Source of the DNA: an uncultured Clostridia bacterium
GTDB lineage: Bacteria > Bacillota > Clostridia > Lachnospirales > UBA5962
Direction of reading: 5' to 3'
Assembly: GCA_946481295.1 (NCBI GenBank)
Contig: CAMLLW010000004.1
Span: 1-64,000 of the forward strand
DNA length: 64,000 nt
Shown: positions 7,521 through 55,975 of the stretch, piece after piece
Layout: each line of letters begins with the position of its first letter
Position numbering within the stretch: the first letter of the stretch is position 1
The notes under the pieces: generated by a model
The model's input: the letters and a program-made list of their open reading frames with translations, nothing else
Told to the model about the DNA's origin: nothing
Database searches by the model: none
Translations under genes and position numbers: made by a program

Positions 7521-8168
7521 ATGCGTAATAGAAAAAAACCATGGGCACAAGGGGAACTTGAAAATAATAATTTAATAATAAAAAATGCAGAAGAATTTAA
7601 AGGAAAATGGCATTTGTATTTTAACAATTCTAATCCTATTCATTTGGAAATTGGTTGTGGTAAGGGAAGTTTTATAACTAAACTGTCTCAAAAAAATCCT
7701 AACATTAACTATATTGCACTAGAAAGAGCATCTCAAGTAATAGTAACAGGTGCAAGAAAATTAAGAGAACTATCTGAAGAAAATAATTTTTCTGGTAACT
7801 TAGTATTTGTATTGGGAAATGTTACAAATTTAAAGGATTATTTTAAAGAAGAAGAATTAGATAGACTATATATAAATTTTTGCGACCCATGGCCACGTAA
7901 AAAATGGGCAAAAAGAAGATTAACATATAGAGAGTTCTTAAATACTTATAAATTATTATTAAAACAAAATTCTGAAATACATTTTAAAACAGATAATAAA
8001 CAGTTATTTGAGTTTTCACTAAATGAATTTTGTAATCAAAACTGGCACTTAAAAAATATAAGCTTAGATCTTCACAATAGTAATTTTGAAGAAAATATTA
8101 TGACAGAATACGAAAAGAAATTTTCTGATATGGGAATGCCTATATATAGATTAGAGGCATGGTATTAA
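7521..8168 (+). CDS. trmB: tRNA (guanine-N7)-methyltransferase
   Basis: SAM-dependent enzyme making m7G46 in the variable loop of tRNAs. The start is the ATG at 7521 (215 residues), preceded by GAGGAG; an earlier in-frame start at 7476 adds 15 codons with no ribosome site. Motifs: SAM-binding EIGCGKG at residues 43-49, the DPWPRKKWAKRR signature at about 122-133, FKTDN, and the C-terminal TEYEKKF block. Monocistronic, ending in a shared hairpin with the convergent hemerythrin gene. Confidence 0.95.
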   Translation: MRNRKKPWAQGELENNNLIIKNAEEFKGKWHLYFNNSNPIHLEIGCGKGSFITKLSQKNPNINYIALERASQVIVTGARKLRELSEENNFSGNLVFVLGNVTNLKDYFKEEELDRLYINFCDPWPRKKWAKRRLTYREFLNTYKLLLKQNSEIHFKTDNKQLFEFSLNEFCNQNWHLKNISLDLHNSNFEENIMTEYEKKFSDMGMPIYRLEAWY

Positions 8169-8198
8169 AAGGAAGGTTTAATTAACTTCCCTTTTAAT
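8164..8198. terminator. Bidirectional terminator, trmB / hemerythrin gene
   Basis: Imperfect inverted repeat with ATTAAAAGG on one side and CCTTTTAAT on the other, with a small internal mismatch, between two convergent stop codons. T-rich on the plus-strand exit. Confidence 0.65.
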
Positions 8199-8748
8199 AT
8201 AATTTTTCTAACATATCTATAATATCTAAATATTTCAAACAATTATTTTTTTCTTTATTAATTTTTTCAATTTTTTCTGATTCTAAGTCAATTTTATCTA
8301 AAATATCTTTATTTAAATTTTTTTCTGCATATGTATAGACTAATTTATTTTCTTTTTCTATATGTCTCCTAATTAAATAAACATAGGCCATCATATTAGA
8401 AATTATACTTAATTTATCTTTAGTATTAAAATTTTTTTCATAACTAATTATAGAATTTTCTATTTCTAAAATATGTAATCTTGCTAAGTCATGTTCAACT
8501 AACATACCACTACTTATAAGATTTTTAGCTATAGATCCTAAATTTTCTAACATATATTTAAATAAAATATTTTCTTCTTTTTTATGATGATAATTATCTG
8601 CATACTCTTTCATAAAAATTACTGCTTTTTTAAAAATATTTATATCTAAAATTTCTCCTTCAATAATTTTTACACATATATTTTCTATAACATTTGTAAA
8701 TCGCAAAATATTATCATGTTCGATTAATAAAATATCTATACTATACAT
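8194..8748 (-). CDS. Hemerythrin-domain protein
   Basis: 184-residue four-helix protein with the expected diiron ligand pattern: H11 (IEHDN), H54/H55 with E58/E59 (HHKKEEN), H86 (VEHD), and H129 with E133 (RRHIEKEN). Such proteins bind oxygen or nitric oxide, or aid Fe-S repair in anaerobes. Its stop and start fit a position directly downstream of hcp on the same strand (26 bases between them), so it is probably co-transcribed with hcp and part of the nitrosative/oxidative defence unit. A short linker rich in Lys/Glu ends the protein. Soluble, no signal peptide. Confidence 0.88.
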   Translation of the reverse strand: MYSIDILLIEHDNILRFTNVIENICVKIIEGEILDINIFKKAVIFMKEYADNYHHKKEENILFKYMLENLGSIAKNLISSGMLVEHDLARLHILEIENSIISYEKNFNTKDKLSIISNMMAYVYLIRRHIEKENKLVYTYAEKNLNKDILDKIDLESEKIEKINKEKNNCLKYLDIIDMLEKLY

Positions 8749-8774
8749 AATTATTTACCTTCTTTTTATAAATA

Positions 8775-10403
8775 TTATATTTCTTCAAAAAAATTTTTAA
8801 TATCTTTTTCTACTGTTTCTATTCCTGAAATATTAAATTTTTCAATTAATAAATCAAGAACATTTTTTGATAAAAATGCTGGTAAAGTTGGACCAAGATG
8901 TATATTTTTAACTCCTAAATATAATAATGATAATAAAACTATAACAGCTTTTTGTTCATACCAAGATATATTATAAATTATAGGTAAGTCATTTATATTT
9001 TCAAGTTCAAAAATTTCTTTTAATTTAAGTGCTACTAATATAATAGAATAACAATCATTACATTGACCTGCATCTAAAACTCTAGGAATTTCTCCTATAA
9101 ATCCTAAATTTAATTTATTATATCTATACTTTGCACAACCTGCAGTAAATATAACTGTTTTTTTAGGCAAAGCTTTTGCAAATTCTTCATAATAAATTCT
9201 ATTATTTTCTCTTCCATCACAACCTGCCATTACTACAAATTTTTCAATATCTCCTTTTTTTATAGCGTCAATAATTTTATCTGATAACTCTAAAACTTGG
9301 TTATATCCAAATCCCCCTAATATTTCTCCAGATTCAATTTCTTTAGGTGGATTACATTTTTTTGCATGTTCTATTATAATACTAAAATCTTTTTTTTCAT
9401 CTATATCTCCAGATATATGTTTACATTCTGGAAAATTAACAGGTCCTGTTGTATAAATTCTATCTTTATAACTTTCTTTTGGTGGAACTATGCAATTTGT
9501 TGTTATAAGTATAGGTCCATTAAATGCATCAAATTCTTCTTTTTGATTACACCATGATCCTCCATAATTTCCTATAAAATTTTTATATTTTTTTAATTTA
9601 GGATAATAATGAGCAGGTAACATCTCTGAATGTGAATAAACATCTATGTTTGAATTTTTTGTTTGCTCTAATAACATTTCTAAATCTCTTAGATCATGTC
9701 CTGAAACTAATATAGCTGGATTATTTCTAACTCCTATATTAACTTTTGTTACAGTAGGATTGCCATAAGTATTAGTATTTGCATTATGTAGTAATTCCAT
9801 AGCTTTTATACCAACTTTACCAGTTTCTAATGTTAAATTTATTAGATAATCTAATGTCAAATTATCATTTATAGTATCTGCTAATGCCTTTTGTATAAAT
9901 TTATCAATTTCATCATCATATTCTAAAAGTATATTTGCATGTCTATAATATGCAGATATACCTTTTACTCCAAAAGTTATTAATTGTCGTAAACTTTTAA
10001 TATCTGGATTTTCAATTTTTTCAAAATGATCTAATTTTGATTTATTTAAAATATAGTTATCACATAGTGAAATTTCTGATAAATTACTTTTATTTGATAA
10101 TTCATTTAATAATTTATTTTTTATTAATAAAGTTTTATTTATTTTATTATTTATATCTTCAATATCAAAATTAACATTTGTAATTGTAGAAAATAAATTT
10201 AAATTTATTAAATCATTTACTTCTTTACTCACTAATTTTTTTTCTTCTCTAAGTGTTGTTGTTATTTCTGATAATCCTTTTGTAATTAAAATTAAAAAAT
10301 CCTGAGCATTTGAAACATCAGCATTTTTCCCACATATTCCACATACTGTACAGCCTTTGTTTTCTTTTGTTTCCTGACATTGATTGCAAAACATTTTATC
10401 CAT
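8775..10403 (-). CDS. hcp: Hydroxylamine reductase / hybrid-cluster protein
   Basis: 542-residue hybrid-cluster protein. It reduces hydroxylamine to ammonia in vitro and acts on nitric oxide in vivo. The N-terminal Cys motif C6-x2-C9-x8-C18-x5-C24 has the spacing known from strict anaerobes such as Desulfovibrio, which bind a [4Fe-4S] cluster there, rather than the spaced form of facultative enterics. Later hybrid-cluster ligand blocks are visible ([27 protein letters not shown], and an IxWYEQKAV segment). ATG start with AGGAGG. It heads an operon with the hemerythrin gene, and a class II Crp/Fnr-type site plus TATAAT lies directly upstream (10445-10487). Confidence 0.95.
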
Positions 10404-10444
10404 ATATTAAAATTTCCTCCTAATATTTATTATAATAATTTAAA

Positions 10445-10487
10445 ATTATAATTTAATCTAATAATATAGTCTGTAACATATGTTACA
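10445..10487 (-). promoter_or_regulatory. Crp/Fnr-type operator and -10 box of hcp (class II geometry)
   Basis: Perfect 16-bp palindrome TGTAACATATGTTACA at 10472-10487. On the minus strand a perfect TATAAT lies at 10450-10445, so that the palindrome centre sits at -41.5 relative to a start at about 10438. This is the spacing used for class II activation by Crp/Fnr proteins. The GTAAC...GTTAC core resembles the HcpR-type motif described for clostridia. The adjacent Crp/Fnr gene (10495-11160) is the obvious regulator. Confidence 0.8.
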
Positions 10488-10494
10488 AAATAAT

Positions 10495-11160
10495 TTAGGA
10501 GTTAATTTTTAAATTATCTATATCTATTATAGTTATTATATTTTTTTCAACTTTAATTAATCCTTCTCTTTCCATTTTCATTAATTCTCTAGAAATTGAT
10601 GGACGTGTAACACCTACATAATCTGCTAATTCTTCTCTATTAAATTCTAAATATATTTTATTTGAATTTTTATTTTTTTGTAAAAAAAAGTTTATTAATT
10701 TTTGTCTTATTGAAAAACTACCTAAAATTATGTTTTTTTGATTTAAGTAAAATGCTTTCTCTGCAAGTACTTCAATCATATTTCGTGTTAACTTTTTTTG
10801 TATTTCTAATTCACTATTATCTTTATAAAATAATGATTTATTAATTAATAATAATTTTGTATCTTCTAAAGTTATGCAAGAATAATCATAATTATAATTA
10901 TTTATAAATAAGTATACTTCACCAAAAATTGTACCAGTTTCTCTAAAAATATTTACAATCGTTGTTCTACCATTTAAATCAACCTTTTCTATTTTTACTG
11001 ATCCACTTAATAAAATATATATATGTTTTGGTATATCATTTACTTGAAAAATATAAGAAGATTTATTATAAGTTTTTTCATTTATTTCTAATAAATTTAT
11101 CAGTCTATTTATTTCATATTTATTTAAATCTTTAAAAAGTTTACAATTTAAATAATTCAT
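10495..11160 (-). CDS. Crp/Fnr family regulator, likely HcpR-like activator of hcp
   Basis: 221 residues from the ATG at 11160, preceded by GGAGGAGA; an in-frame start 17 codons upstream has no ribosome site. The N-terminal cyclic-nucleotide-binding-type beta barrel spans about residues 15-125 (SYIFQVNDIPKHIYILLSG, then FGEVYLF), followed by a dimerisation helix and a winged-helix DNA-binding domain (REELADYVGVTRPSISREL). Only one cysteine (C6) is near the N-terminus, so there is no Fnr-type [4Fe-4S] ligand set. Haem or another NO sensor, as proposed for HcpR proteins, is possible but cannot be seen. Located directly upstream of hcp, with the predicted target site between the two genes. Confidence 0.85.
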   Translation of the reverse strand: MNYLNCKLFKDLNKYEINRLINLLEINEKTYNKSSYIFQVNDIPKHIYILLSGSVKIEKVDLNGRTTIVNIFRETGTIFGEVYLFINNYNYDYSCITLEDTKLLLINKSLFYKDNSELEIQKKLTRNMIEVLAEKAFYLNQKNIILGSFSIRQKLINFFLQKNKNSNKIYLEFNREELADYVGVTRPSISRELMKMEREGLIKVEKNIITIIDIDNLKINS

Positions 11161-11484
11161 ATTCTCCTCCAAATATAATTTATTATAATATATAACAAAA
11201 TAAAAAAGCACTATTATAAAATTATAATAATGTTCTTGTTTTTGTCTAACTTATATTTAATCTTTATAATTATATCATTATTAAATAAAGAAATAATATA
11301 ATTTATAAAATTTAAATTTATTGTACGATTATACTGTTAAATATTTTTATAATATAAATTCAAAACATTTATGTATATAAAATTTTATTAGTAATAAATA
11401 TATTTAAAATAAGCTTTATTAAAATAAATAAAAAATATATAATATATTTTGCAATTTTATATAATATAGCGAAGGAGTTAATAA
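11161..11484. other. Divergent intergenic region, Crp/Fnr gene and yihY
   Basis: 324 bases, nearly all A/T. A TATAAT on the minus strand at 11182-11187 may serve the regulator gene. An all-A/T inverted repeat of 8-base arms lies at 11212-11229. No ORF or RNA element recognised. Confidence 0.4.
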
Positions 11485-12339
11485 ATGAAAAAAAATTTGG
11501 AAAATATTTTTTTGTTCTCTATGGAAATTTTAAAAGAAATGAAAAGTAATGATCTTATATTCTTTGCAAATAATCTAACATATAAAATGATTTTTTCAAT
11601 TTTTCCATTAATAATATTTTTAATGACAATAATAGGATATTTAGAACTAGATATTTCTTTTTTATTTAATGACTCTGCATTTAATATACCAAAAGAATTT
11701 AGTGATATAATAAATAATTTTTTAATAGAAGTTTTTTATACAAAAAGACCAAAATTATTGCAGATTAGCTTAGCAATAAGTATTTTATCTGCATCTTCTG
11801 GATTTAGATCTTTAATATATGGTATAAACAGAGCTTATGATCAAGAAGAAACAAGAAATATTTTTTTTATAATATTTTTAAGTATAATTCTTGTATTTAT
11901 ATTTGCATTAATAATAATATCTTTTTCTTTGCTTTTTGTTTTTAATGATATAATTATAAAAATATTAAATAATTTTACTCTAATTTCAAATACTATTGAC
12001 GAAATTTATAGAATAACTACTTATTTATCTATATTAGTTATTATGATTATTTCAATAATGTTTATAAATAAAATTTCATTAGCAAAGAAAGTTTCTGTAA
12101 TTTCTTTAATGCCTGGTTCTATATTTACAGTTTTAATTTGGATTATAGCTAGTAAACTATTTAACATTTATATAAATAATTTTTCAAAATTTTCTAATGT
12201 ATACGGTAGTATAGGAAGTATAATTATACTTATAATTTGGTTAAATATAATATCTATTGTTTTTTTATTAGGAACGCAAATAAACTCTCTTATTAACAAA
12301 AAAAATATAAAATTTAAAATTTTTAAAATAAAAAAGTAG
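11485..12339 (+). CDS. YihY/BrkB family inner-membrane protein
   Basis: 284 residues with about six membrane segments and the family blocks NDLIFFANNLTYKMIFSIFP near the N-terminus, ASSGFRSLIYGINRAYD in the middle, and YGSIGSIIILIIWLNI near the C-terminus. The family (once wrongly called RNase BN) has no firmly known role; links to transport and envelope maintenance have been proposed. ATG start with GAAGGAG. Single gene, convergent with the rplT operon. Confidence 0.85.
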   Translation: MKKNLENIFLFSMEILKEMKSNDLIFFANNLTYKMIFSIFPLIIFLMTIIGYLELDISFLFNDSAFNIPKEFSDIINNFLIEVFYTKRPKLLQISLAISILSASSGFRSLIYGINRAYDQEETRNIFFIIFLSIILVFIFALIIISFSLLFVFNDIIIKILNNFTLISNTIDEIYRITTYLSILVIMIISIMFINKISLAKKVSVISLMPGSIFTVLIWIIASKLFNIYINNFSKFSNVYGSIGSIIILIIWLNIISIVFLLGTQINSLINKKNIKFKIFKIKK

Positions 12340-12357
12340 GTCATAACCTACTTTTAT
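12332..12357. terminator. Bidirectional terminator, yihY / rplT
   Basis: Perfect 10-base arms AAAAGTAGGT (12332-12341) and ACCTACTTTT (12346-12355) with a 4-base loop, between convergent genes. Confidence 0.85.
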
Positions 12358-12710
12358 TTTAAATTTGCTTTAGCAGTTTCTGCTAATTTTGCAAATGCTT
12401 TTTCATCTGTTATAGCTAAGTCAGCTAAAATTTTTCTATTAATATCGATACCTGCATTTTTTAAGCCATTCATCATTCTACTATAACTAATACCGTTTAA
12501 TCTAGCAGCAGCATTAATTCTTGATATCCAAAGACTACGATATTCTCTTTTAAGTTGTTTACGACCTCTAAAAGAATTAGCCATTGCTCTCATTACAGAT
12601 TGTTTAGCAATTCTATATTGTCTGCTTCTAGCACCTCTAAAGCCTTTAGCCATTTTTAAAACTTTTTTATGTTTTTTTCTAGCGTTTAAAGCGCCTTTTA
12701 TTCTTGCCAT
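12354..12710 (-). CDS. rplT: 50S ribosomal protein L20
   Basis: 118 residues, standard length. Typical L20 sequence: a basic N-terminal half (KGALNARKKHKKVLKMAKGF) and a C-terminal globular domain ending LAETAKANLK. Early-assembly 23S rRNA binder. In Firmicutes it also binds the leader of its own infC-rpmI-rplT mRNA to repress the operon; that leader is present here (13501-13628). Last gene of the operon, 23 bases after rpmI, AAGGAGG ribosome site. Confidence 0.98.
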   Translation of the reverse strand: MARIKGALNARKKHKKVLKMAKGFRGARSRQYRIAKQSVMRAMANSFRGRKQLKREYRSLWISRINAAARLNGISYSRMMNGLKNAGIDINRKILADLAITDEKAFAKLAETAKANLK

Positions 12711-12733
12711 TATAAAATCCTCCTTAAGTTATC

Positions 12734-12931
12734 TTAGATATATGGTAACATTTTTTTCATTTGTGTGTCCTTGGGTTTATCTACTAAAGTTGATTTTCTA
12801 AGACCTCTTTTTCTCTGAGGACTTTTCGTACCAAGAATGTGTTGTTTATTAGCTTTAGCACGTTTTAATTTTCCACTTCCTGTAGCTTTAAAACGTTTAG
12901 CAGCTGCTCTATTTGTTTTTAACTTTGGCAT
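12734..12931 (-). CDS. rpmI: 50S ribosomal protein L35
   Basis: 65 residues, full length, with the L35 pattern [20 protein letters not shown] and a C-terminal MKKMLPY block. Middle gene of infC-rpmI-rplT. ATG with AAGGAGG. Confidence 0.98.
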
Positions 12932-12972
12932 TTTAAATTACCTCCTTAAAATAAGTAATATTATTTTTTTTA

Positions 12973-13482
12973 CTATAATTTAGGTCCAAGAAACATTGCC
13001 ATGCTTCTAGCTTCCATTTTAGGTGCTTTTTCAACTATGCCATATTCAGAAACAGCATTAGCAAAGTCATTTAAAATATCGTAGGCTACGTCTGTATATC
13101 CCATTTCACGACCTCTAAAACGGATACTTACTTTTACTTTATCACCATTTTTTAAAAATTCTAAGGCTTTTTTAATCTTAACGTTAATATCATGGGTATC
13201 GATGTTTGGAGATAATCTAAGCTCTTTTATTGATATAGTTTTTTGTTTTTTACGAGCTTCTTTTTCCTTTTTTTGTTGTTCAAATTTATATTTACTATAA
13301 TTCATTATCTTACAAACTGGTGGTTTAGCACCTGGTGAAATCTTTACTAAATCCAACCCTTGTTGTTCAGCTAGTCTTAAACCTTCTTTATGATGTACTA
13401 TTCCTAACTGTTCTCCATCTGCATTAATAAGTCTTATTTCTTTATCCCTGATTTGTTCGTTAATCATTAACTCGGTAATAAT
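12973..13482 (-). CDS. infC: Translation initiation factor IF-3 (AUU start)
   Basis: IF-3 prevents 50S joining and checks start codons on the 30S subunit. 169 residues. The start needs care: AGGAGGT lies 5 bases before an ATT at 13482, whereas the first in-frame ATG (13467) is about 20 bases away and an ATG far upstream (13536) lies within the leader terminator. An AUU start is the classic IF-3 autoregulation device known in E. coli and Bacillus, so I choose ATT, giving a protein beginning (M)ITELMINEQIRDKEIR. The N-domain has INADGEQLG and GLDLVKISPGAKPPVCKIMNY; the C-domain ends in a MAMFLGPKL block. Confidence 0.92.
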   Translation of the reverse strand: MITELMINEQIRDKEIRLINADGEQLGIVHHKEGLRLAEQQGLDLVKISPGAKPPVCKIMNYSKYKFEQQKKEKEARKKQKTISIKELRLSPNIDTHDINVKIKKALEFLKNGDKVKVSIRFRGREMGYTDVAYDILNDFANAVSEYGIVEKAPKMEARSMAMFLGPKL

Positions 13483-13500: not shown

Positions 13501-13628
13501 AATAAAAAAAGTGGGCAGCATAAAGCACACCCACATCTATATAAATATTATTAATTTATTTACATATTTATATTATCAACCCTAAGCCTGTGGCAAATAG
13601 GTGAGAAGAGGTGCCTTCTGCTTTTACC
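13501..13628 (-). ncRNA. Ribosomal protein L20 leader (autoregulatory mRNA leader)
   Basis: The transcribed leader upstream of infC holds the conserved blocks GGCACCTCTTCTCACC and GGCTTAGGGTTGATA, followed by a terminator hairpin (GTGGG...CCCAC, 13511-13534) and a U-run just before the infC ribosome site. This is the arrangement of the Firmicutes L20 leader family, in which excess L20 favours the terminator. Recognised from memory of the family; a covariance-model search would confirm it. Confidence 0.85.
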
Positions 13629-13634
13629 TAAAAC

Positions 13635-13663
13635 ATACTAACATATAAAAATATTAGTGTCAA
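13635..13663 (-). promoter_or_regulatory. Promoter of infC-rpmI-rplT
   Basis: On the minus strand, TTGACA (13663-13658), a 17-base spacer and TAGTAT (13640-13635). Predicted start near 13628, exactly where the L20 leader begins. Confidence 0.8.
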
Positions 13664-13708: not shown

Positions 13709-13975
13709 TTAAATGCCTATTATTTTTAAAATTAATTCTACTTGATCTTTCTGTTCTTTAGTTAAAGAATTTAAAAGAAAATTCATTATTGCTATTTTTT
13801 GATCTTCATTTATAGGATTATCTTTATTTAATTTATTATTACACTCCATTACAAGTAACATTACATCTTCTAATCCTTTACCTGGTATTTCCAGAAATAA
13901 ATCTTTAATAGTATTTATTTTTTCTTCTGATACTCCATTAAAAACTTCATTTGAAAGTAATTTATTTAAATCCAT
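13709..13975 (-). CDS. Small helical-repeat protein of the subtilase cluster (unknown)
   Basis: 88 residues, all predicted helix, no cysteine-rich, signal or membrane part. The last 30 residues (IMNFLLNSLTKEQKDQVELILKI) match the helical repeat found twice in its upstream neighbour and again in the protein at 16072: a helix, a turn, a Gln, then an amphipathic helix. The ATG overlaps the stop of the upstream gene by one base (TAATG), so it is translationally coupled to it. Function unknown. Its C-terminus is abrupt; it may be a cap or shortened version of the repeat protein. Confidence 0.75.
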   Translation of the reverse strand: MDLNKLLSNEVFNGVSEEKINTIKDLFLEIPGKGLEDVMLLVMECNNKLNKDNPINEDQKIAIMNFLLNSLTKEQKDQVELILKIIGI

Positions 13976-14463
13976 TATGATCCACCACCTATACTATCTA
14001 ATTTTTGCAATTTTGTCATCATCTCTTTAAATTCAAAAACTTGTAATATTATATCTAACTGTTCTCTTTTACGTTCTTCCATATGTGGTCTAATTGCAAG
14101 TAAAATATTTTTCTGCCAATTTTCACTATCTACTTTTTTTATACTGGCAACAGTATTATTATACTTTTTAAAAAGATTTTGTATTTCCATAATTTTTATT
14201 ATAAATCCTATGTTTTTTTGATATTTATCATCTAAATAAGGTAAAATAGCCTTCATAGTTTTCATATTTCCATCAGATAAATCATCATCAAAATATTCTG
14301 TATTTTCTTTTACTCTGTTATTATTAATATCTCCCATAACTTTCATAACTTCAAAAAGTTTTAAAACTTTTTTCATATCTAAATCATTATTTTCTTTTCC
14401 CATTAATTTAGATAACATTTGCATTCTTTCTAACATACTTTTAAAATCTATTTCTTTTTCCAA
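13975..14463 (-). CDS. Helical-repeat protein of the subtilase cluster (unknown)
   Basis: 162 residues from a TTG at 14463 with AGGTGAT before it. Rich in Met, Lys, Glu and Ile, predicted all-helical and soluble, ending in a short Gly tail. Two copies of a repeat of about 35-40 residues are visible: KAILPYLDDKYQKNIGFIIK (from about residue 69) and LLAIRPHMEERKREQLDIIL (from about 120), each followed by an amphipathic helix. The pattern is roughly A-I-x-P-x-[LM]-x4-[QR]-x2-[IL]-x3-I. The same repeat occurs in the genes at 13709 and 16072, which flank it and the subtilase gene. No family recognised. Confidence 0.75.
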   Translation of the reverse strand: MEKEIDFKSMLERMQMLSKLMGKENNDLDMKKVLKLFEVMKVMGDINNNRVKENTEYFDDDLSDGNMKTMKAILPYLDDKYQKNIGFIIKIMEIQNLFKKYNNTVASIKKVDSENWQKNILLAIRPHMEERKREQLDIILQVFEFKEMMTKLQKLDSIGGGS

Positions 14464-14472
14464 AATATCACC

Positions 14473-14510
14473 TACTTAATTTAAACATATGTATTAAGTA
14501 GTTACTTAAT
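14473..14510. promoter_or_regulatory. Repeated TACTTAAT sites upstream of the helical-repeat operon
   Basis: ATTAAGTA-GT-TACTTAAT forms an 18-bp inverted repeat at 14493-14510, and a further TACTTAAT copy lies at 14473-14480, 10 bases before the TTG start of the downstream gene. It could be an operator pair or an mRNA hairpin. A/T-rich, so only suggestive. Confidence 0.35.
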
Positions 14511-14521
14511 GATAAAGAAAC

Positions 14522-14550
14522 AAAAACCTGCAGTTTACTACAGGTTTTTA
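14522..14550. terminator. Terminator of the Met/Gly-rich peptide gene
   Basis: Arms AAAAACCTG (14522-14530) and CAGGTTTTT (14541-14549) around a 10-base loop, a few bases downstream of the stop at 14557 on the minus strand. Confidence 0.8.
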
Positions 14551-14556
14551 TTTAAT

Positions 14557-14721
14557 TTATTTTGTCTCACAAACTCCTAAACCTGGCCCCATAAACATGC
14601 TCATAATAAGCAATAACATCATCATGTTATCTCCACCAAAAGCACCTGGTCCACAGCCACCAAATCCTCCGAAGAGCATTAACATTATTATTAACATCAT
14701 CATATTATTTCCACCACACAT
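14557..14721 (-). CDS. 54-residue Met/Gly-rich peptide
   Basis: Short ORF with strong support: AAGGAGG 8 bases before the ATG at 14721, and a terminator directly after the stop. The peptide starts MCGGNNMMM and alternates Met/Leu/Ile-rich hydrophobic stretches (LIIMLMLF; MMMLLLIMSMFM) with Gly-rich turns (GGFGGCGPGAFGGDN), ending GVCETK. About a quarter of the residues are Met; Cys are at positions 2, 23 and 51. Two short near-repeat units (Gly-Asp/Asn-Asn-Met-Met-Met followed by a hydrophobic run) suggest internal duplication. It could be a small membrane or self-assembling (spore- or coat-like) protein, or a copper-type Met/Cys metal binder. It is divergent from the subtilase gene. No family recognised. 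Confidence 0.7.
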   Translation of the reverse strand: MCGGNNMMMLIIMLMLFGGFGGCGPGAFGGDNMMMLLLIMSMFMGPGLGVCETK

Positions 14722-14927
14722 ATTACGTGCCTCCTTATACTATAAACATGAATTTGTAAATTAACTTAGTAGTATTTTATGAAGTGTATAAAAAAATATT
14801 GCTAGTCTTGTAAAAATTTTGCACTATTTCGGACACGCTGTAGTATTTTATAAGTTAAGATAGTATCAAAAATAATCTTAAATTCATAAAATATCAGCAA
14901 TAGAACAATTAAGGAAGGTTGTTGTTA

Positions 14928-16082
14928 ATGGATATATTGCAAGTAATTATAGAATGTAATATAGATACAGAAAAAGAAAAAAAAATGAGTTCATTAGGTA
15001 AAATAAAATATAGATTACCTATGATAAATTCTTATGTTCTAGAAATTCCAGAAAGTGCATTGCCTAAAATACAAGCTTTAAGTAATGTAAAATCTATCTA
15101 TAAAACTACTCATATTACAGCTCAAATGCATTCTGCAAGAAAAATAGTAAAAGCATCATATGCTCATAAAAATGGATTTTCTGGCAAAGATATAGGAATT
15201 GCTATTTTAGATACAGGTGTAGGGCCAATAGAAGATTTGAGATTTCCTAAAAATAGAATTATAGCTTTTAAAGATTTTGTTAATAACAAAAGTGAAGCTT
15301 ATGATGATAATGGGCATGGAACTCATGTTGCAGGTATAGCAGCTGGTAATGGATTTTTATCTAATGGTAAGTATATGGGTATTGCACCTGAAGCTAATAT
15401 AATAGGTATAAAAGTATTAGATGAATTTGGTAAAGGTAATTCTGTAGATGTTTTAGCTGGCATTCAGTGGATGATAGATAATAAGGAAAAATATAATATA
15501 AAAATAGCTAATCTCTCTGTTGGTACACCTGATAATGGTATAAATGATCCTCTAGTAAAAGCTGCAGAAATAGCTTGGGAAAATGGAATTGTAGTAAATG
15601 TAGCAGCAGGTAATAACGGTCCTAATCCTAATACAATTACATCTCCTGGAATAAGTAAAAAAGTTATCACTGTAGGCTCAGCAGATGATAACCAAAAAGT
15701 ACAAATTTGGGATGATACTTTAGTTAATTTTTCAGGCAGAGGTCCTACATCAGAATGTATAGTAAAACCCGATTTAGTTGCGCCAGGTTCTAATATAATT
15801 TCTTGTCTAAGTCCAACACCTAATCAACATAAATTAAAAAATAAAGAATTTAATATTATATCTCAAAATTATTTACAACTTAGTGGTACTTCTATGTCAA
15901 CGCCTATTATATCTGGATCTATTGCGTTATTAATACAAAAATATCCTGATTTAAAACCTGATGATATTAAATATATGCTTAAAAAAAGTGTTGATAATCT
16001 TAATTATCCTAAAAATCAGCAAGGTTGGGGACTTATAAATATAGAAAAACTTTTATCTCAGGAGGCTTATCATGTCAGATAA
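14928..16082 (+). CDS. Subtilisin-like serine protease (S8), no signal peptide
   Basis: 384 residues from the ATG at 14928 (AGGAAGG before it; in-frame TTGs at 14919 and 14922 are less likely). Catalytic triad: D95 in ILDTG, H130 in NGHGTH, S322 in SGTSMSTP; oxyanion Asn in AAGNNGP. Residues 1-70 look like an I9-type propeptide/chaperone domain (DILQVIIECNI...YVLEIPESALPKI). No signal peptide or membrane segment, so it resembles cytoplasmic or spore-type subtilases (AprX/Isp, Csp) rather than exported ones. It overlaps the next gene by 11 bases. It is divergent from the Met/Gly peptide gene. Substrate unknown; the co-encoded repeat proteins are candidates as substrate, inhibitor or scaffold. 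Confidence 0.92.
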   Translation: MDILQVIIECNIDTEKEKKMSSLGKIKYRLPMINSYVLEIPESALPKIQALSNVKSIYKTTHITAQMHSARKIVKASYAHKNGFSGKDIGIAILDTGVGPIEDLRFPKNRIIAFKDFVNNKSEAYDDNGHGTHVAGIAAGNGFLSNGKYMGIAPEANIIGIKVLDEFGKGNSVDVLAGIQWMIDNKEKYNIKIANLSVGTPDNGINDPLVKAAEIAWENGIVVNVAAGNNGPNPNTITSPGISKKVITVGSADDNQKVQIWDDTLVNFSGRGPTSECIVKPDLVAPGSNIISCLSPTPNQHKLKNKEFNIISQNYLQLSGTSMSTPIISGSIALLIQKYPDLKPDDIKYMLKKSVDNLNYPKNQQGWGLINIEKLLSQEAYHVR

Positions 16083-16575
16083 TATCTATGAAATAGCTAA
16101 AATGATGCAAAATAAAAATATATTACAAGAAGATTTAAATGAAGCTATTAATCTTATTACAGGTCACTTTCAAAAAAAATATACAAATAAAATATATGAT
16201 GTTCTACAACACAAACAGCAGGAATTTACTAATAACCCTAATGAACATGTAAAACTTTTAAATGCTCTAAAACCTTTTATGCCTGAAACACAACGTCCAA
16301 ATATAGATAAAACAATAAATATGTTAATTATGTTTGATACAATAAATAGTATAAAATCTGAAATAAATCCTAACCAAAATAAAAATATATCATCACCAAA
16401 TTTTGAAAAAAGAGTCTCATCATCATCTCTAAATATGCGAAGCAAAGATTCTGCTATACACGAAGATGGAATTTATGAATTTGATAATAAATGTTTACAA
16501 CAAGAAAGTTTTAAAAAAAAAGAAAATAATTTTGTAAATGAACTTTTTTTAATATTTATAATGTTATGTAGATAA
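16072..16575 (+). CDS. Helical-repeat protein coupled to the subtilase (unknown)
   Basis: 167 residues; the ATG lies inside the subtilase gene's end (11-base overlap) with CAGGAGG before it, so it is coupled. Residues 20-105 hold two helical repeats (EAINLITGHFQKKYTNKI and LLNALKPFMPETQRPNIDKT) of the type seen in the divergent genes at 13709 and 13975. From about residue 110 the sequence becomes Ser/Asn/Lys-rich and disordered, and it ends in a hydrophobic tail (FVNELFLIFIMLCR) that could be a tail anchor. Function unknown. Confidence 0.72.
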   Translation: MSDNIYEIAKMMQNKNILQEDLNEAINLITGHFQKKYTNKIYDVLQHKQQEFTNNPNEHVKLLNALKPFMPETQRPNIDKTINMLIMFDTINSIKSEINPNQNKNISSPNFEKRVSSSSLNMRSKDSAIHEDGIYEFDNKCLQQESFKKKENNFVNELFLIFIMLCR

Positions 16576-25455: not shown

Positions 25456-28400
25456 CTATTGTAAAATAATATCTAAAATATACATAAAATCTCCCATTTT
25501 TAAGCTTTCTTTAGGATTAGCATTTAAATCTCTAAAGAAACCTAATTCACCAGCTTTTAATAATTCGTTATGATATTTAGAATCACTATTTTTAATATCT
25601 TTATATGGAGTATCATCTAAAGATGGAAAATACTTTATAGGTGTACCAGTTTTATTTTCATAAACTTTTACTAAAGAGCTAATACCTGCTTCTCTCGAAA
25701 CAATTGAACCACTAACTAAGATTTTAGCTCTGCCTAAAGCATCAAAATTATCTTTACTTAATTGTTTATTCATTAAAACAGATTTATCTCCTTTAATAAC
25801 ACTTGCTATTATTTGATTAAATTGGTTAGCATGTATATAATCATTTTCATTATAAACACCTAAATCCATTATATCTAATTTATTAGTTACTCTTAACATA
25901 TTTTCTTTTGTTTCACCATAACCTAAAACACTTAAAGGTTTATCTTTTAATGCAACACTATAAACTGCAGGTTTATAAATTTCAAAACTTACTAAATTAT
26001 CTAAATTATTATATTGATAATCTACAGGTATCCATCCTTCTAATCCACTATAATTAACATAAGTACAGATATTATCATATGTTTTATTTATATTTTTATT
26101 AATAACCATATTTGCTTTTAATGGTTTTTGAAATTTATTAATATTTATAGAATTAGAATTATTAGATACTTTTATATCTATACCTTGTGGCTTAGATATA
26201 TATGAGTTATTTGAATTATCTATAAAATTTTCTGTAATAGTTATAACTATTTTAGTTGAATTATTTAAATCTTTCATATTTTTAACTTCGTCATTTATTA
26301 TTGCTTTATATGGTATTGTAACTATAAAATTATCAGCTTTTATCTTTAATTCTATTTTACGCTCATCAAAAGCTTTAATTATACTATAAGGTAGTTCAAC
26401 TAATCTATTGTTAATTTCTCTATTATTATAGTGAGAAATATCTACTTCATGTATATATACTCTATTAGCTATAAGTCTAGAAATAAATCTTTCATCAACA
26501 TTATTATCTCTATTGCCTTTAGAGTCTAATTGATTAGATCTTAATCTATAAATTAAAGATTTTGATCCTCCATCATAATATAATTCAAAATCTTTATCTG
26601 GTAAAGGATACATATCTGGATTTTTATCTCCATCATAATCACCTTTACTTTTTTCTGTAATTATCTCTATATATGACCAATCAGATTCTTTTATTATTGT
26701 ATTATTTTTATTGTTTGTAATATCTGTATCTACTGGTACTTCTATTTCTATAATATCTTTATAATCTTTATCTAAACTTATTTGTACTACATATGTATAT
26801 GATTTTTTTAATTTACCATCTGTATCTTTTGTTGCTATAAGTCTAGTTTTTGCTCTTATATAGTAACGCTTATTAATATCTAATTTATTAAACTTAACCA
26901 TATAAGAATTTTTTTCTATATTATCGCTATATAAAAATTGTGCATTATCATTATCTGTACCTTTAGGAGCTATTTCTGTAGTTAAGTCACCACTATGTCT
27001 TAACCACTGAATAATTAAATAAGTATCAGATGATGGAGTATAATTAGTATTAGAGTCTTTATTATATAAATTTACATTTTTACTTGATGCTATTCCTAAT
27101 CCTTTTGGAGCGTATGGTCCTTGTAATTCCTTAGTATTCATTTCTATAGGATTTGACCAAGAAGAAAATACGCTTTCTCCCTGATCTTTATTAGCAATAG
27201 ATCTTATCCAAATAAAATAACTAGACTCTGGAAACATATTTTCTATAGTAAAATACATATATACTTTTCCGTTTTCATCTTTTAACTCACCATTTTTCTT
27301 AATATCTTCTGAATTTATAATTATTCCTCCATCTGGATAATCAGAAAATTTTTCAGAAAATTTAAGTTCATAATTTAATTCTTGTACATACTCCCATTTT
27401 ACAGTTATAGTTGTATCAGTAGAAGATACAGGATGTAATATTGGTACAATAGGAACTATATCTATAGGCTTTTCAGTATTTAATGTTGTAGCAGAAATAT
27501 AATTTGGAAAATAAGCTAATAAATTATTGCCATTTAAATTATTATATGGTCTTAAAAATATAACATAAGAAGATGCAGGTTTCATTGTGCCAGCTACATT
27601 TTCTACTGTATTTACAATATAATCTAATGTTGTTTCTCCTGATGGATTTATATCTTTCCAATTATATTTTTCTGGATTATTACTTATTTCCTTTACATAC
27701 TTTTCATAACCAAATTTACTTATAATGCTAAAATCTACTGTATGTATTTTATAATTTGCTCCATTTAAATCTATAAGTCTAATTACAGGAATATCTATAT
27801 AACTAGAAAGTTCTTTTATAATTTTATTTTTTGTAACATTGTAATTTAATGTGCCATCTTCATTTATTACCCTATTTTTATATAATATATTGTCCTTATC
27901 TTTAACAACATCTCCAAAAACTAACTTACCATCTACTAATCCTACTTTAGAATACCACTTTTGATCATTATATACTTCAAACCATTGTTCATCCCACTCT
28001 ATTCCTATTGTATTTGAAGTAATAGCTTCTACTCCATTTTCTTTTTTTATTCTTAATGGAGGCTTAGATAGCATATTTGCATTTGTAGGAATTTTATTTA
28101 TTGGAATAATATAATGTGCCCCATATGCATCTAAAGATTTTTCTCCTGTTTCATTTCTTATTGCAGAAATTTTAATGTAATAAATTTTATTCTCAATAAA
28201 TTCTTCTTGAATAAATTCTCCTAAATCATTTTTATAGTAATAATTATTTAAAGTTGTATTAAAATAAGGTACATTATCTATATTAGTAACAGATAATGTA
28301 TTACCATCTATAATAGTTGCCATCTCATCTGTCATAAAATTAAAATTTGCTTTATCATCTGTAACCCAAATTTTATATGTAACATTTTTATCTAAATATT

Positions 28401-29736
28401 TACCATATTTCGGATCTTCTACTTCAGTTTCTTTGAAAGCTTTTCTTAAAAAAGCTTCCCATGTTATATTTAAATTAAATGGAATTTCTCTATTGTCTTC
28501 TATATTATATATTGTAGGTCTATATGGACTAAAGTTATCATCTTCATTTTTATAGGTAGCTTCCTGCGATTCCATAGTAAGATTAAAGTTGACTATTCTT
28601 CCATTTTCATCTTGATAACTTACATTTTTAAATTCAACAAAAAACTTATATATAGCTACTTTTTCTTCAGGTATAGGGACTCTTTCACTTGTAATAGTCC
28701 TCGCTGTTTCACCTTGTAAAGTTTTTATAATATTTATTGCTTCTTCACCGTTTTCATCTTTACTTGTTTTTATTATTTGTAAATTTTGTATTTGTTCTCC
28801 TACAGATGATCCACTAAGCTTAGGCCAAACTAAATTTATATGAGTAATACTAAATGGATTTATATTTAAAGGAGGTTTTATATATGCTTTATCATAAATA
28901 AAAAGCTTAGTTCTTTCTGGTATAGTAGAAAATATATTCTCATTAATAGTATTTCCATTTTGTATAGTTACAGTTGTATTTATTAAAGAATCTCTCTTTG
29001 TATCTTGATATAAAGGTTCTACTTTAACAGCATAAATACTTCCAACTTTAAAATCTGATCTTGATACAACGTAAGATGCAGTTTTATTATCTATAGTTAA
29101 TTCATCTTTATTAACTATTTTAGACTCTATATTTTCAAAATTTAATTTTTTATCTTGTGATATTTCTGTAAAATTTATTTCATATGCGGTAAAAAATTGA
29201 TTCCCATCTATTGTTGGTAAAGTCCAACTAACTTTCATTTTATCTAAATCATTTTCACCTATAGCTTTAACTTCAATTTCTGTCATAAATAAAAATTCAG
29301 ATATTATAGAGCCTGGTTTATCTACTGAAATAGGAGTACCATCTGCAGTAAATTCATTTTCCTTATATACTGGAACTATTTTAAATTGATAAAAGCTACC
29401 TTTATCTAATTCAAGATCTAAATCATATCTAAGTATTTCATTTTCATCACCTTGATAATCTATATTATTCTGAGATGAAAAATCAGGGTATTGTTCTGAT
29501 TTTGTTGCATTTCTATAATAAATTCTATAACCTTGTAATGTTCCTCCAGTAGGAGATTTATCATTAGCTTTTTTCCAACTAAAAATTAATTTATATCGAT
29601 TATTCTCTAAAGAATTTACCTCTAATTTAGATTTAAAATTTTGACTAGCTCCAAAAACTTTTATATTAGGTAAATAAGTAATTATAAAAGAAACAATTAA
29701 GATAAATGATGTTAGTCTTTTTAATATATCTTTCAT
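25456..29736 (-). CDS. Giant secreted fibronectin type III surface protein
   Basis: 1426 residues. Signal peptide at about 1-30 (ILIVSFIITYLPNIKVFGA). A long array of fibronectin-III-like beta domains follows; typical cores are RYKLIFSWKKAN, MKVSWTLPTIDG, HINLVWPKLSG, NLNITWEAF, TIGIEWDEQWFE and TITVKWEYVQEL. Near residue 1031 an acidic GDYDGDKNPD linker leads into another beta domain (FIVTIPYKAIINDE). The last roughly 160 residues resemble a degenerate SLH (S-layer homology) region. A GGAGG site precedes the ATG. It lies 51 bases after an even larger protein of matching architecture, so the two form an operon. Probably a cell-envelope or adhesive protein; ligand unknown. No LPxTG motif. Confidence 0.8.
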   Translation of the reverse strand: MKDILKRLTSFILIVSFIITYLPNIKVFGASQNFKSKLEVNSLENNRYKLIFSWKKANDKSPTGGTLQGYRIYYRNATKSEQYPDFSSQNNIDYQGDENEILRYDLDLELDKGSFYQFKIVPVYKENEFTADGTPISVDKPGSIISEFLFMTEIEVKAIGENDLDKMKVSWTLPTIDGNQFFTAYEINFTEISQDKKLNFENIESKIVNKDELTIDNKTASYVVSRSDFKVGSIYAVKVEPLYQDTKRDSLINTTVTIQNGNTINENIFSTIPERTKLFIYDKAYIKPPLNINPFSITHINLVWPKLSGSSVGEQIQNLQIIKTSKDENGEEAINIIKTLQGETARTITSERVPIPEEKVAIYKFFVEFKNVSYQDENGRIVNFNLTMESQEATYKNEDDNFSPYRPTIYNIEDNREIPFNLNITWEAFLRKAFKETEVEDPKYGKYLDKNVTYKIWVTDDKANFNFMTDEMATIIDGNTLSVTNIDNVPYFNTTLNNYYYKNDLGEFIQEEFIENKIYYIKISAIRNETGEKSLDAYGAHYIIPINKIPTNANMLSKPPLRIKKENGVEAITSNTIGIEWDEQWFEVYNDQKWYSKVGLVDGKLVFGDVVKDKDNILYKNRVINEDGTLNYNVTKNKIIKELSSYIDIPVIRLIDLNGANYKIHTVDFSIISKFGYEKYVKEISNNPEKYNWKDINPSGETTLDYIVNTVENVAGTMKPASSYVIFLRPYNNLNGNNLLAYFPNYISATTLNTEKPIDIVPIVPILHPVSSTDTTITVKWEYVQELNYELKFSEKFSDYPDGGIIINSEDIKKNGELKDENGKVYMYFTIENMFPESSYFIWIRSIANKDQGESVFSSWSNPIEMNTKELQGPYAPKGLGIASSKNVNLYNKDSNTNYTPSSDTYLIIQWLRHSGDLTTEIAPKGTDNDNAQFLYSDNIEKNSYMVKFNKLDINKRYYIRAKTRLIATKDTDGKLKKSYTYVVQISLDKDYKDIIEIEVPVDTDITNNKNNTIIKESDWSYIEIITEKSKGDYDGDKNPDMYPLPDKDFELYYDGGSKSLIYRLRSNQLDSKGNRDNNVDERFISRLIANRVYIHEVDISHYNNREINNRLVELPYSIIKAFDERKIELKIKADNFIVTIPYKAIINDEVKNMKDLNNSTKIVITITENFIDNSNNSYISKPQGIDIKVSNNSNSININKFQKPLKANMVINKNINKTYDNICTYVNYSGLEGWIPVDYQYNNLDNLVSFEIYKPAVYSVALKDKPLSVLGYGETKENMLRVTNKLDIMDLGVYNENDYIHANQFNQIIASVIKGDKSVLMNKQLSKDNFDALGRAKILVSGSIVSREAGISSLVKVYENKTGTPIKYFPSLDDTPYKDIKNSDSKYHNELLKAGELGFFRDLNANPKESLKMGDFMYILDIILQ

Positions 29737-29787
29737 CTATTGTCCTCCATTTATTGTTTTAAAATAATAAAATTTGCTATAAAATTT

Positions 29788-32700
29788 TTATAAATTTACT
29801 TTACCATCTAAAGTAGTTAATAATTCTAACATTTTATTTATGTTTATTGTTGATCGTGGATTTAAATTTGTATCATTATAAATATTTAATTCTAATGCTA
29901 CTTTTATACTTTTTTCAAATTTAGGATCTATATTTTTTATATTAGAAGTTATTCCATAATTTCTAATTGATATTGAATCAATTTTAGTATTCGTCCTAAT
30001 CTCATAACATACCATTGTTAAATATATAGATTCTTGTAAATAAATATTACTTTGTTTGTTACCTAATAATTCAGTATATCCTTTAGATAATAAAAATTCT
30101 GTACTATTAGTTCCACTTTTTGCACCTGATAATCTTGCAATTGTATCTAAAAACATCTGTCTTGTAACAACTTTATCTAAGTCTATATATCCATTTATAC
30201 CTAAAATATCATACAAATCATATTTTGATATTATTGAAAATGTTTTACTAGCATTATCATTTCCAACAAGACCAGGTATAACTAATATTTGTCCAACAAA
30301 AATATATATACCTGGCTTTTTAGTGAAAATGCCCTTGTTTTTTCCAAAGTTTTGTATTTCTAAAGTGTTTCCAAAATTTGAAGATGATAAGTCATATCCT
30401 TTTATAGCAAGAGTTTCATCTGTAGATTTATATAAAATATACATATTAAGATCTAATTCATTAATATTTAATTTCTCTTTTAATGTTCTTGTAAAATAAT
30501 TATCTGATCTTTGTATCATTTCTTGTTTAAAAACTTCAACTGATTTCAAAAAATATCTTACCATTTCTTCAAAACTAATATTATTATCTAAACTATCTTT
30601 TATATATTTTTCTATCGAATTTGATGAAGAATGCTTTTCTATATTTTCTAAATACATATTAAGAATTTCTTCATCCCAATTTAAATTAAGTATTTCACTT
30701 CCAATTAATTCAAAATTTATTTTTATTTCATCAGATAAAGTGTTTTCTTCATTTCTAAAATTATGTGGAGTAGATGTTTCTATAAATATTTTTATATAAT
30801 AATCTTTTATATCTTTATTTTTTACTTTTCTAGACATTGTAATTAAATCTTCGTTTAACTCAGCATTTATCGCTTTTGTTGGTATAATAATATCTATATC
30901 ATTATTTAAAATAATTTTAAATCCTTTTTCAGAATTATTTGCATTTATTAAAATTTGAGCAGGTATATAATAAGTTAATGTTCTTGCTCCTTTTTTACTT
31001 GTTATAAGTTCTATATTTGAGTCAATAGAATTTTTAATTAAATCATCAAATTTACTTTGTCTATATACTGTTACAAAATTTTCTGTAGAATCTGCAATTG
31101 TCCAATAAGGATCTTTAATAACTTTTAATAACTCTTCTTTAAAATAATCTTTCCAATCACTTACGTTTTTATCTTTATCATAATCACCTTGTTTTTGATT
31201 TGTTCTTGTTATAGCTGTATTTGAATAAGCAGATATATCTTTAGTAGATATACTATACATTCTTACTCTTATACTATAATTTGTATTGGACTTTAATCCA
31301 CTAATTCTATAAGTAAAATGTATATATCCTTCTTCTTTAGATTTCTTTGCATCCTTTTTAAGTAAGGAACTATCTAATTTTCTAGGTTCAGAAAATTCAT
31401 TATTTTCTTCTTTTATTGAATACTCTATTTCATACTCTTTTCCTAACAAATCTAAATTTTTTATAGGAGCATCAAATCTTATAATAAATTCTGATTCTGG
31501 ATCATAATCTTCTCTATCATTATCTACATATAAATTTATAGGAGCTTTTAAAGTAGATGTTGTTCCTGAAATAACACTCCAATTAGAATACTTAGTATCA
31601 TTACCAATAACTCTTACAGTCCTTACATAGTAAAAATATATTTGATTAGATATTAATGTATTATCAATAAGATCTAAATCTAAATCTTTATATATTATTT
31701 GAAATTTATCTGTATCTGCAGGTACAAAACTACTTCCATTAAAAATATCAGGTGAATATTTTTTATTATCTCTCTCAATTTCACTAGTTCTTAAAAATAA
31801 TTTATCTATATCTGGCATAGTTTTTTGTAATTTATCATAATATGATTTTAAATCTTCTCTTTCGATAAGATTTGAATTATCTATTTGTTTATTTCTTGTT
31901 CTTATTATTTCATAATTAATCTTAACTTTGCTATTTTCTTCTGGGATTTCTACATAAGGCCAAAATATTGTTGCTGTATCTAATCCAATATCTTTAATGC
32001 CTAGTACTGGAGATGCGGGTACTTTATCAGAGTCATCAGGTATATTTGGAGTAGAACCTGTAAGAGTAGCAATTAAATTAGAAAATAAAGATTCTAATAT
32101 AATATTATTATTTTCTTTATCTTTTGGTATATACTCTGATCCTAAAGCTACATAAATATAATACTTTTGATTTTCATCTAATCCACTAATAATGATTTCT
32201 GGAGTAAAATCTATACCATTTGAAAGCATATTATAATATTTGCTTAAGTCTAAACCTTCAAATCTTAAAACTTTACTATCTCTTAACTCTGTTAGTTGTG
32301 AATTAGTTATTTCTATTTCTTCTTTTGAATTTAATTTATAATTTTTAACTAAACTTAACTTTTTATCTAGATTATTTTCTTCTGCAACTTCTTTTATTTT
32401 ATCTTCATTTTGTGATATATAAATATTTGTAAAAAAGTTCAATTTATCGTTAAGTAATTCTTTACTATAATCATTTTCTTTCATAAAACTTAAAATTTCT
32501 TTACTTGCATGTCTCCAACTAATAGTAAACTTCTTTATATCTTCTTTTTTACTATGTAAATCATAAGGTGCAGGTAATTCTTGTTTTAATAAATCACTTA
32601 ATGTCATACTATCATATTTAGATTGCATATCTTCATTTTGATTTGTCATAACATTTAAAAAATAAATTCTAGGATAGTAAAAATCAATAGAATTATTTTC

Positions 32701-53982: not shown

Positions 53983-54885
53983 ATGGCAAATTTATACTAT
54001 GATAGCATAGGATATACAGAAAAATGTCAACAAGTAGCTGTTAATTTTCTTCCTCAACATCAACCAACTCAACCTGGTATTGAAAGTATTATGGATCCCC
54101 CTCCAATTTTCGAAAATTCTGAGTATAAGGGGACAGGAAAATTAAAAGATAAAGTTGCTATAATAACTGGTGGTGATAGTGGTATTGGTCGTGCTGTTGC
54201 TGTAGCTTTTGCTAAAGAAGGAGCAGATTTATGTATAGTTTACTATGATGAACATGACGATGCTAATTTTACAAAGAAACTAGTAGAAGCACAAGGTAGA
54301 AAATGTATACTTATATCTGGAGATGTAAAACAATCTGAATTTTGTAAATTTTCAGTAGAAGAAACTATTGCAAAATTAGGTAAGTTAGATGTTTTAGTAA
54401 ATAATGCAGGTGTTCAATTCCCTCAAACTAATTTAGAAGATATTTCTGATGAACAATTTGCAACAACTTTCCATACAAATATTTTTGCTATGTTCTATAT
54501 GGCAAAACATGCAAGACCTTATTTAAAAGATGGTAGCTGTATAATTAATACAACTTCTGTAACTGCATATATAGGTCAACAAAACTTAATGGATTATTCA
54601 TCTACTAAAGGTGCTATAGTAAGTTTCACTAGAGCTTTAGCTAGATCTCTTGCAGATAAACACATACGTGTTAATGCTGTTGCTCCTGGGCCTATTTGGA
54701 CTCCTTTAATTCCTGCAAGTTTTGATGATCAAGAAATTGAAACATTTGGTTCTTCTGTACCAATGAAAAGACCTGCTCAACCAGTTGAACTTGCTCCAAC
54801 TTATGTATATCTAGCTTCAGACGATTCTAGCTATGTAACAGGACAAATTTTACATGTTGATGGCGGTCAATCTATGCAATCTTAG
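53983..54885 (+). CDS. SDR-family oxidoreductase (YghA-like), copy 1
   Basis: 300-residue classic SDR with an N-terminal extension of about 50 residues containing PQHQPTQPGIES, typical of the YghA/YhdF subgroup. NADP-binding TGGDSGIGRA, NNAGVQFP, catalytic Ser (NTTSVT), YSSTK (Y-x3-K) and a C-terminal VTGQILHVDGGQSM. Likely general-stress or alcohol/aldehyde oxidoreductase; substrate unknown. Followed by a strong hairpin and then a paralogue. Confidence 0.92.
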   Translation: MANLYYDSIGYTEKCQQVAVNFLPQHQPTQPGIESIMDPPPIFENSEYKGTGKLKDKVAIITGGDSGIGRAVAVAFAKEGADLCIVYYDEHDDANFTKKLVEAQGRKCILISGDVKQSEFCKFSVEETIAKLGKLDVLVNNAGVQFPQTNLEDISDEQFATTFHTNIFAMFYMAKHARPYLKDGSCIINTTSVTAYIGQQNLMDYSSTKGAIVSFTRALARSLADKHIRVNAVAPGPIWTPLIPASFDDQEIETFGSSVPMKRPAQPVELAPTYVYLASDDSSYVTGQILHVDGGQSMQS

Positions 54886-55078: not shown

Positions 55079-55975
55079 ATGTTTTATTATAAAAATATAG
55101 GCTATAAAGAAAAATGCAAAAATGTTCCTGTACTCTTTCCTCCACAACATCAAGATACACAACCTGGTATAGAAAATATTATGGATCCTCTTCCAATTTT
55201 CGATGATCCAAATTATATAGGCACAGGAAAACTAAAAGATAAAGTTGCTATAGTAACTGGTGGTGATAGCGGAATTGGTCGTGCTGTTGCTTTAGGTTTC
55301 GCAAAAGAAGGTGCAAATATATCTATAGTTTATTATGATGAACATGAAGATGCAAAAATTACAAAAGAATTAATAGAAAATCAAGGTGTAAAATGTATAC
55401 TTATTTCTGGTGATGTATCAAAAGCTGACTTTTGTAAATGTGCAATTGAAAAAACAATTGATATATTTAATAGATTAGACATACTAGTTAATAATGCAGG
55501 AGTACAATTTCCTCAAAAAAATATAGAAGACTTAACAGATGAGCAATTTTCTATCACTTTCCATATAAATATATTTTCTGTATTCTATATGACAAAATAT
55601 AGTTTACCTTATCTAAAATCTGGCAGTTCTATAATTAGTACTTCTTCATTATTTGCATATAGAGGATGTAAAGAATTACTTGATTACTCTTCTACAAAAG
55701 GTGCTATTGTATCTTTTACAAGAGCTGTTGCTAGATCTCTTGCAGAAAAAAATATACGCGTTAACGCTGTTGCTCCTGGACTTATTTGGACACCTCTTGC
55801 TGTCTCTAGTTGGAGTGCAGATGAAATACCAACATACGGTACAGATAATCCAATGAAAAGACCTGCTCAACCAGTTGAACTAGTTCCAACATATATTTAT
55901 CTTGCATCAGATGATTCTAGTTATGTAACAGGTCAAGTTTTACATGTAGATGGTGGAAATACTATGCAATCTTAA
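55079..55975 (+). CDS. SDR-family oxidoreductase (YghA-like), copy 2
   Basis: 298 residues, clearly a tandem duplicate of the gene at 53983: same N-terminal extension, TGGDSGIGRA, NNAGVQFP, catalytic TSS and YSSTK, and VTGQVLHVDGG end. It differs in the substrate-side loop (SLFAYRGCKELL against SVTAYIGQQNLM) and in the segment after APGLIWTP, which suggests different substrates. Own ribosome site (GGAAGTGG) and terminator. Confidence 0.92.
   Translation: MFYYKNIGYKEKCKNVPVLFPPQHQDTQPGIENIMDPLPIFDDPNYIGTGKLKDKVAIVTGGDSGIGRAVALGFAKEGANISIVYYDEHEDAKITKELIENQGVKCILISGDVSKADFCKCAIEKTIDIFNRLDILVNNAGVQFPQKNIEDLTDEQFSITFHINIFSVFYMTKYSLPYLKSGSSIISTSSLFAYRGCKELLDYSSTKGAIVSFTRAVARSLAEKNIRVNAVAPGLIWTPLAVSSWSADEIPTYGTDNPMKRPAQPVELVPTYIYLASDDSSYVTGQVLHVDGGNTMQS

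Follow-up and report, generated by a model that had tools for sequence, protein, structure and literature searches.

A cytoplasmic-type subtilase gene that overlaps a small repeat-protein gene, with further small genes running away from it on the opposite strand, raises the question of which cellular process such a locus serves. It lies in a window (the whole stretch of DNA analysed) of 64,000 nucleotides at the start of contig CAMLLW010000004.1 from an uncultured Clostridia bacterium (GCA_946481295.1). An earlier note on this DNA had likened the protease to the Isp and Csp subtilases and their dedicated partners, perhaps in sporulation. From sequence comparison across relatives, we consider that the locus is probably a mother-cell sporulation module whose protease gene, aprX, is split in relatives by a recombinase-bearing element that would be removed for expression.

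All reading frames listed in the earlier note are present as described (Table 1), including the 11-base overlap between the protease gene (P) and the repeat gene B, and the coupled pair on the opposite strand, A2 and A, which share a single base (TAATG). Its three small genes are real, but a fourth, C, which is conserved at the same place between A and P, had been omitted. A2-A and C are divergent from P-B in the window, and the better, and likely, start codon of P is the ATG at 14928, which AAGGAAGG precedes at 14911-14918.

Table 1. Features of the locus, in window coordinates.
Feature	Position	Strand	Description
A2	13709-13975	-	88 aa, with a single helical repeat that resembles those of A and B less closely; second in the A-A2 unit
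A	13975-14463	-	162 aa, helical repeat present twice, no Pfam family
C	14557-14721	-	54 aa, hydrophobic, Gly/Met-rich
CATAAAATA box 5' of C	14773-14781	-	mother-cell sigma-type -10
CATAAAATA box 5' of P	14885-14893	+	sigma-E/K-type -10
P	14919-16082	+	AprX-type S8 subtilase, intact; stop 16080-16082
Unoccupied equivalent of first attachment core, ACT CAT GTT (T-H-V of GHGTHV)	15321-15329	+	element sits here in relatives
Unoccupied equivalent of second attachment core, CAGATGATAA	15682-15691	+	identical to the G222 junction repeat
B	16072-16575	+	167 aa, one helical repeat, 11-base overlap with P

On sequence grounds P is an orthologue of AprX. A Bacillus AprX query (L204 from B. tequilensis, assigned to AprX on similarity) has P as its sole match at E ≤ 1e-8 in this genome, with 47% identity; P matches PF00082 (E = 2.7e-53), its Asp, His, Asn and Ser active-site positions are invariant among 17 P orthologues, and named records put it in the AprX group, where the longest orthologues are from Clostridia (Defluviitaleaceae, Vallitalea, Lachnospiraceae), followed by Bacilli. 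The Csp germination subtilases and Isp have the S8 fold in common with P, but its neighbours and promoter class are different, and the Csp family models match it weakly and partially (CspBA, 91.9 bits against a cut-off of 1250; CspC, 54.1 against 675). In Bacillus subtilis, aprX is listed in a published table as a sigma-K gene (PMC3416734), and the notion of an Isp/Csp-like control system was accordingly not borne out. The orthologous cytoplasmic subtilase AprX of B. subtilis differs from the window's P in its setting, as P adjoins A2-A-C and B, whereas the Bacillus genes examined have none of these around them.

The similarity on which the earlier note had based its reading, one repeat in three small genes, is significant for A and B in profile comparison and weaker for A2. 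Profiles of 30 A and 25 B homologues align over 44 columns, the length of one repeat, with E = 7e-6 and a probability of 84%; a profile built from the B family alone recovers 21 of the 30 A proteins at E ≤ 1, and one built from the A family alone recovers 15 of the 25 B proteins, while shuffled sequences yield none in either direction. For A2, 10 of 27 proteins are recovered, where a shuffled set yields 0.05 on average, and one of the ten is an A-A2 fusion already contained in the A alignment. The AlphaFold model of A consists of two helical hairpins, at residues 65-109 and 116-159, where pLDDT is mostly 88-96 (overall pTM 0.41), and a Foldseek search of the PDB with this model gave no match at E < 1. 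Neither A nor B has a match over the curated cut-offs in Pfam or NCBIfam, the A family having been scanned in Pfam and the window protein alone in NCBIfam; homologues of A and of B likewise fall in no Pfam family. Matches of the small proteins to Cnd1, Tle1-like, DacA, MobQ and YydF (E = 0.0006-0.06) were rejected, as they lie under the cut-offs, point to unrelated families and do not recur among homologues. A and A2 look soluble, and the C-terminal part of B carries a conserved DG(V/I)Y..D..C motif and a hydrophobic tail.

The earlier note had also proposed looking for the same gene order in related genomes, and the genes of the module are indeed neighbours there, so that neither of the two outcomes which that note had named as refuting its reading was observed. 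A homologues occur in 32 of 57 relatives and B homologues in 24, usually with A2-A (and C) divergent from P-B, a layout that recurs across the order, which appears to be Lachnospirales. B overlaps or closely follows P in most genomes, C is kept at the same place and on the same strand in many, and A2 adjoins A in many and is fused to it in one (G021, L068). As judged from these comparisons, the protease and the repeat proteins form a conserved and previously undescribed module.

Three lines of evidence, namely the AprX orthology, an association with spoIVA and a sigma-K-type motif upstream of P, argue for a mother-cell sporulation module rather than an Isp/Csp system, and the suggested link to sporulation is thereby supported. 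P was found in 118 of the 256 genomes of the order, six more matches having been set aside as other S8 proteins; it is almost confined to genomes with SpoIVA, which is present in 114 of these 118 against 72 of the 138 P-negative genomes (Fisher p = 2e-17, uncorrected for phylogeny). No SpoIVA match was found in four P-positive genomes (G028, G041, G137 and G234), some of which are incomplete. In 18 of 38 genomes, against 0.8 expected, the pattern AC-N15-19-CATAnnnT[AG] stands 5' of P; in the window's own genome the P promoter has the -10 box only, the AC of the sigma-K -35 being not evident. Of 28 genomes, 26 have CATA..[ACT]T 5' of C, against 5.4-5.6 expected, and 20 of 34 have a CATA-type -10 box 5' of A. 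Promoter motifs are not enriched 5' of B, nor full promoter patterns 5' of A2, where the loosest pattern is slightly in excess, as expected for operons P-B and A-A2. Sigma-E/K-type factors are encoded in all 21 genomes tested.

What the small proteins do beside the protease can be approached through genomes in which the two are separated. They might be dedicated inhibitors or activators of P, like other subtilase partners and with no structural role in the spore, and the translational coupling of B to P in most genomes is in keeping with this. We regard it as rather unlikely, since four loci (L088, L089, L090 and L097) of family f2, probably Cellulosilyticaceae, retain A2, A and B (and C) without P, which implies a role of the repeat proteins that is independent of the protease and not merely regulatory; Bacilli, conversely, keep P with none of A, A2, B or C within 10 kb of it, and A and C appear to have promoters of their own. 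We lean towards a role in structure or scaffolding at the spore envelope in which B tethers P, although this partner function, like the timing and the excision discussed below, is something we infer. For a helical-repeat family of spore formers that had no name, the comparison gives a first outline of family, neighbours, promoter class and likely compartment.

Whereas the window's own P copy is intact, many relatives carry the gene in two fragments, one matching P as far as residue ~138 and the other from ~130 onwards, or else as far as ~258 and from ~254 onwards. Of the 32 P-bearing genomes in family f17, apparently Anaerotignaceae, 7 have an intact gene and 25 lack any uninterrupted copy. 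In 20 genomes a single contig carries both halves, collinear and at a spacing of 2-45 kb; 17 of these genomes belong to f17 and the others are G038, G222 and, from another order, G380. The spacing is 2.2-8.2 kb for most of the f17 genomes; it is 20 kb for G120, 10 kb for G038, 7 kb for G222 and 45 kb for G380. Misassembly was rejected as the cause, as G112, G231 and G255 are single-contig assemblies. Shortened P genes in G036, G017 and G050, candidates for a split at residue ~66, proved to be complete short forms without the N-terminal part.

Breaks fall mostly at the active-site motif GHGTHV, with a second site at codon ~256. At the first site, GHGT(H)V closes the 5' half and (T)HV(T/A)GI opens the 3' half, around a common AC(C/A)CAYGT-like core, and the joined flanks read in one frame through the subtilase profile; in G219 and G182 the 5' half has HGTQ instead, and HGTH is regained on joining. 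The junction repeats are short (5-13 bp) and differ between genomes. A frame-restoring repeat was picked by the automatic longest-repeat search in 14 of 18 cases; in the other 4 that search chose an out-of-frame match, and the repeat was found by eye at the homologous codons, one of these (G182) sharing only AC.CA.

The halves evolve under constraint. Among 15 pairs drawn from 13 split genomes, the 3' half has a dN/dS of 0.05-0.13 and the 5' half one of 0.06-0.26, apart from one pair at 0.38 (short, with low dS), and no internal stop codons were found in these 13 genomes. The split loci keep A, A2 and C upstream and B downstream, and the CATAnnnTA box is kept 5' of the 5' half in 15 of 22, where 3.3 are expected. 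These values, unlike those of dead halves, are most simply read as a gene rejoined in some cells, and the sigma-K link together with the skin precedents (PMC5595907, PMC5025042, PMC10747680) would place the rejoining in the mother cell. That the gene is simply dead, with aprX an attachment site for phages and islands and the protease dispensable, would suit the splits that are plain prophage (tail genes in G022) or plasmid-like (ParA/ParB in G380), the short forms in other P-positive lineages and the many spore formers that lack P; against the low dN/dS of both halves (0.05-0.26 in all pairs but one), the absence of stop codons, the retained neighbours and promoter box, and selection acting on the recombinases too, we give this account little credence. 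Scarcely credible is the idea that the halves are made as separate proteins assembling in trans into a working split protease: it too predicts conservation of both, but neither a start codon nor a ribosome site is conserved for the 3' half at the break, which itself lies within the active-site His motif, and in G219 and G182 the HGTH motif is restored by joining only. The preferred reading is that the split represents a skin-like element in another target gene, aprX, which would be excised during development.

Nearly every gap contains a serine recombinase, often directly at a junction. In most f17 genomes it is only 298-325 residues long, with the Pfam resolvase and recombinase domains and no zinc ribbon. 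Fourteen of these short recombinases form one clade whose sub-clades follow the host genera, and those of G168 and G255 form a second pair of separate origin (support for the deep forks of this tree is moderate); the elements at codon ~256 carry a separate recombinase lineage. Searching INPHARED with the recombinase gave distant matches only, all below 50% identity, and hence no isolated phage of this type. No clear mother-cell promoter was found at the recombinase genes. A GntR regulator is present in 13 of 20 elements, in several genera, and further cargo consists of ordinary genes (TRAP transporter genes, ThiM/ThiE, ferritin, MATE); as this cargo is common to several genera, the f17 element looks vertically inherited. 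Of the intact genomes, G235 has no such GntR gene and G200 has it elsewhere. Other elements differ: that of G022 is a prophage, with tail genes and a RecE-like exonuclease, that of G227 holds little besides a recombinase, and that of G380 (L284/L285), a genome of another order with aprX split at the same codons, is a 45 kb element with ParA/ParB and a 533-residue serine recombinase. The split aprX of G380 adjoins an A-like repeat protein. At L276 (G086, 7685-13353), four serine recombinase genes stand in a row directly 3' of the P 5' half, as if elements were stacked at this site.

It seems fairly likely, on this evidence, that f17 has domesticated an aprX element, in which a recombinase that retains just the catalytic and recombinase domains would excise 2-8 kb of ordinary genes from the dying mother cell's chromosome, one-way, and so assemble the protease gene, and that phages and plasmid-like elements continue to use this site in other lineages, another order among them. 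Interrupting the mother cell's copy of P would cost little, because that cell dies. The serine recombinase would remove the element precisely, before or when sigma-K transcribes P; P and B would be co-transcribed and switched on late, most likely by sigma-K; for C and A the factor would most likely be sigma-E or sigma-K. Built on the same two-helix repeat, A, A2 and B probably come together as a helical structure at the developing spore envelope, on its mother-cell side, where the hydrophobic tail of B would hold P at a membrane or at this structure itself. That P trims the repeat proteins or coat proteins there is a guess, and one that we would sooner doubt than back.

Comparable elements are known in other genes. 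The skin element splits sigK in B. subtilis and C. difficile, and as a positive control we recovered split sigK in two genomes whose aprX is also split, G058 (G058:C12:224282-244455) and G247 (C5 and C15). Like skin, the aprX element divides a mother-cell sporulation gene and has a large serine recombinase at one end; it differs in its target, in the f17 recombinase being mostly without zinc ribbon and coiled coil, and in its cargo of ordinary genes. The gin element in gerE of B. cereus ATCC10987 (PMC5595907), excised in sporulation, is likewise a non-phage intervening element, though in another target gene, whereas the cargo of the aprX element is common to several genera. The yin element in yabG of C. 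botulinum (PMC10747680) also interrupts the gene of a sigma-K-dependent spore protease, but YabG is a cysteine protease and the case is one strain, while AprX is a serine protease and its gene is affected in about 30 species. The genes listed as assembled by programmed DNA excision are sigK, spsM, spoVFB, gerE and yabG (PMC10747680). We found no report of an intervening element in aprX in the open-access literature, to which the search was confined. A spore protease gene would join that short list, in a large group of anaerobes, with about 30 species affected and with independent elements at the same codons. In serine recombinases the zinc and coiled-coil parts normally govern direction; if the shortened enzymes do carry out excision, they would represent natural serine recombinases that lack these parts, useful for understanding how direction is set.

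Elsewhere in the window, the stretch 13540-13640, 5' of infC-rpmI-rplT, may be a ribosomal leader. Two adjoining large open reading frames (25456-34677, 1426 and 1629 residues) have signal-peptide-like starts and possibly encode secreted or surface proteins, and at 53983-54885 and 55079-55975 there are tandem, similar proteins of ~300 residues whose starts are near-identical.
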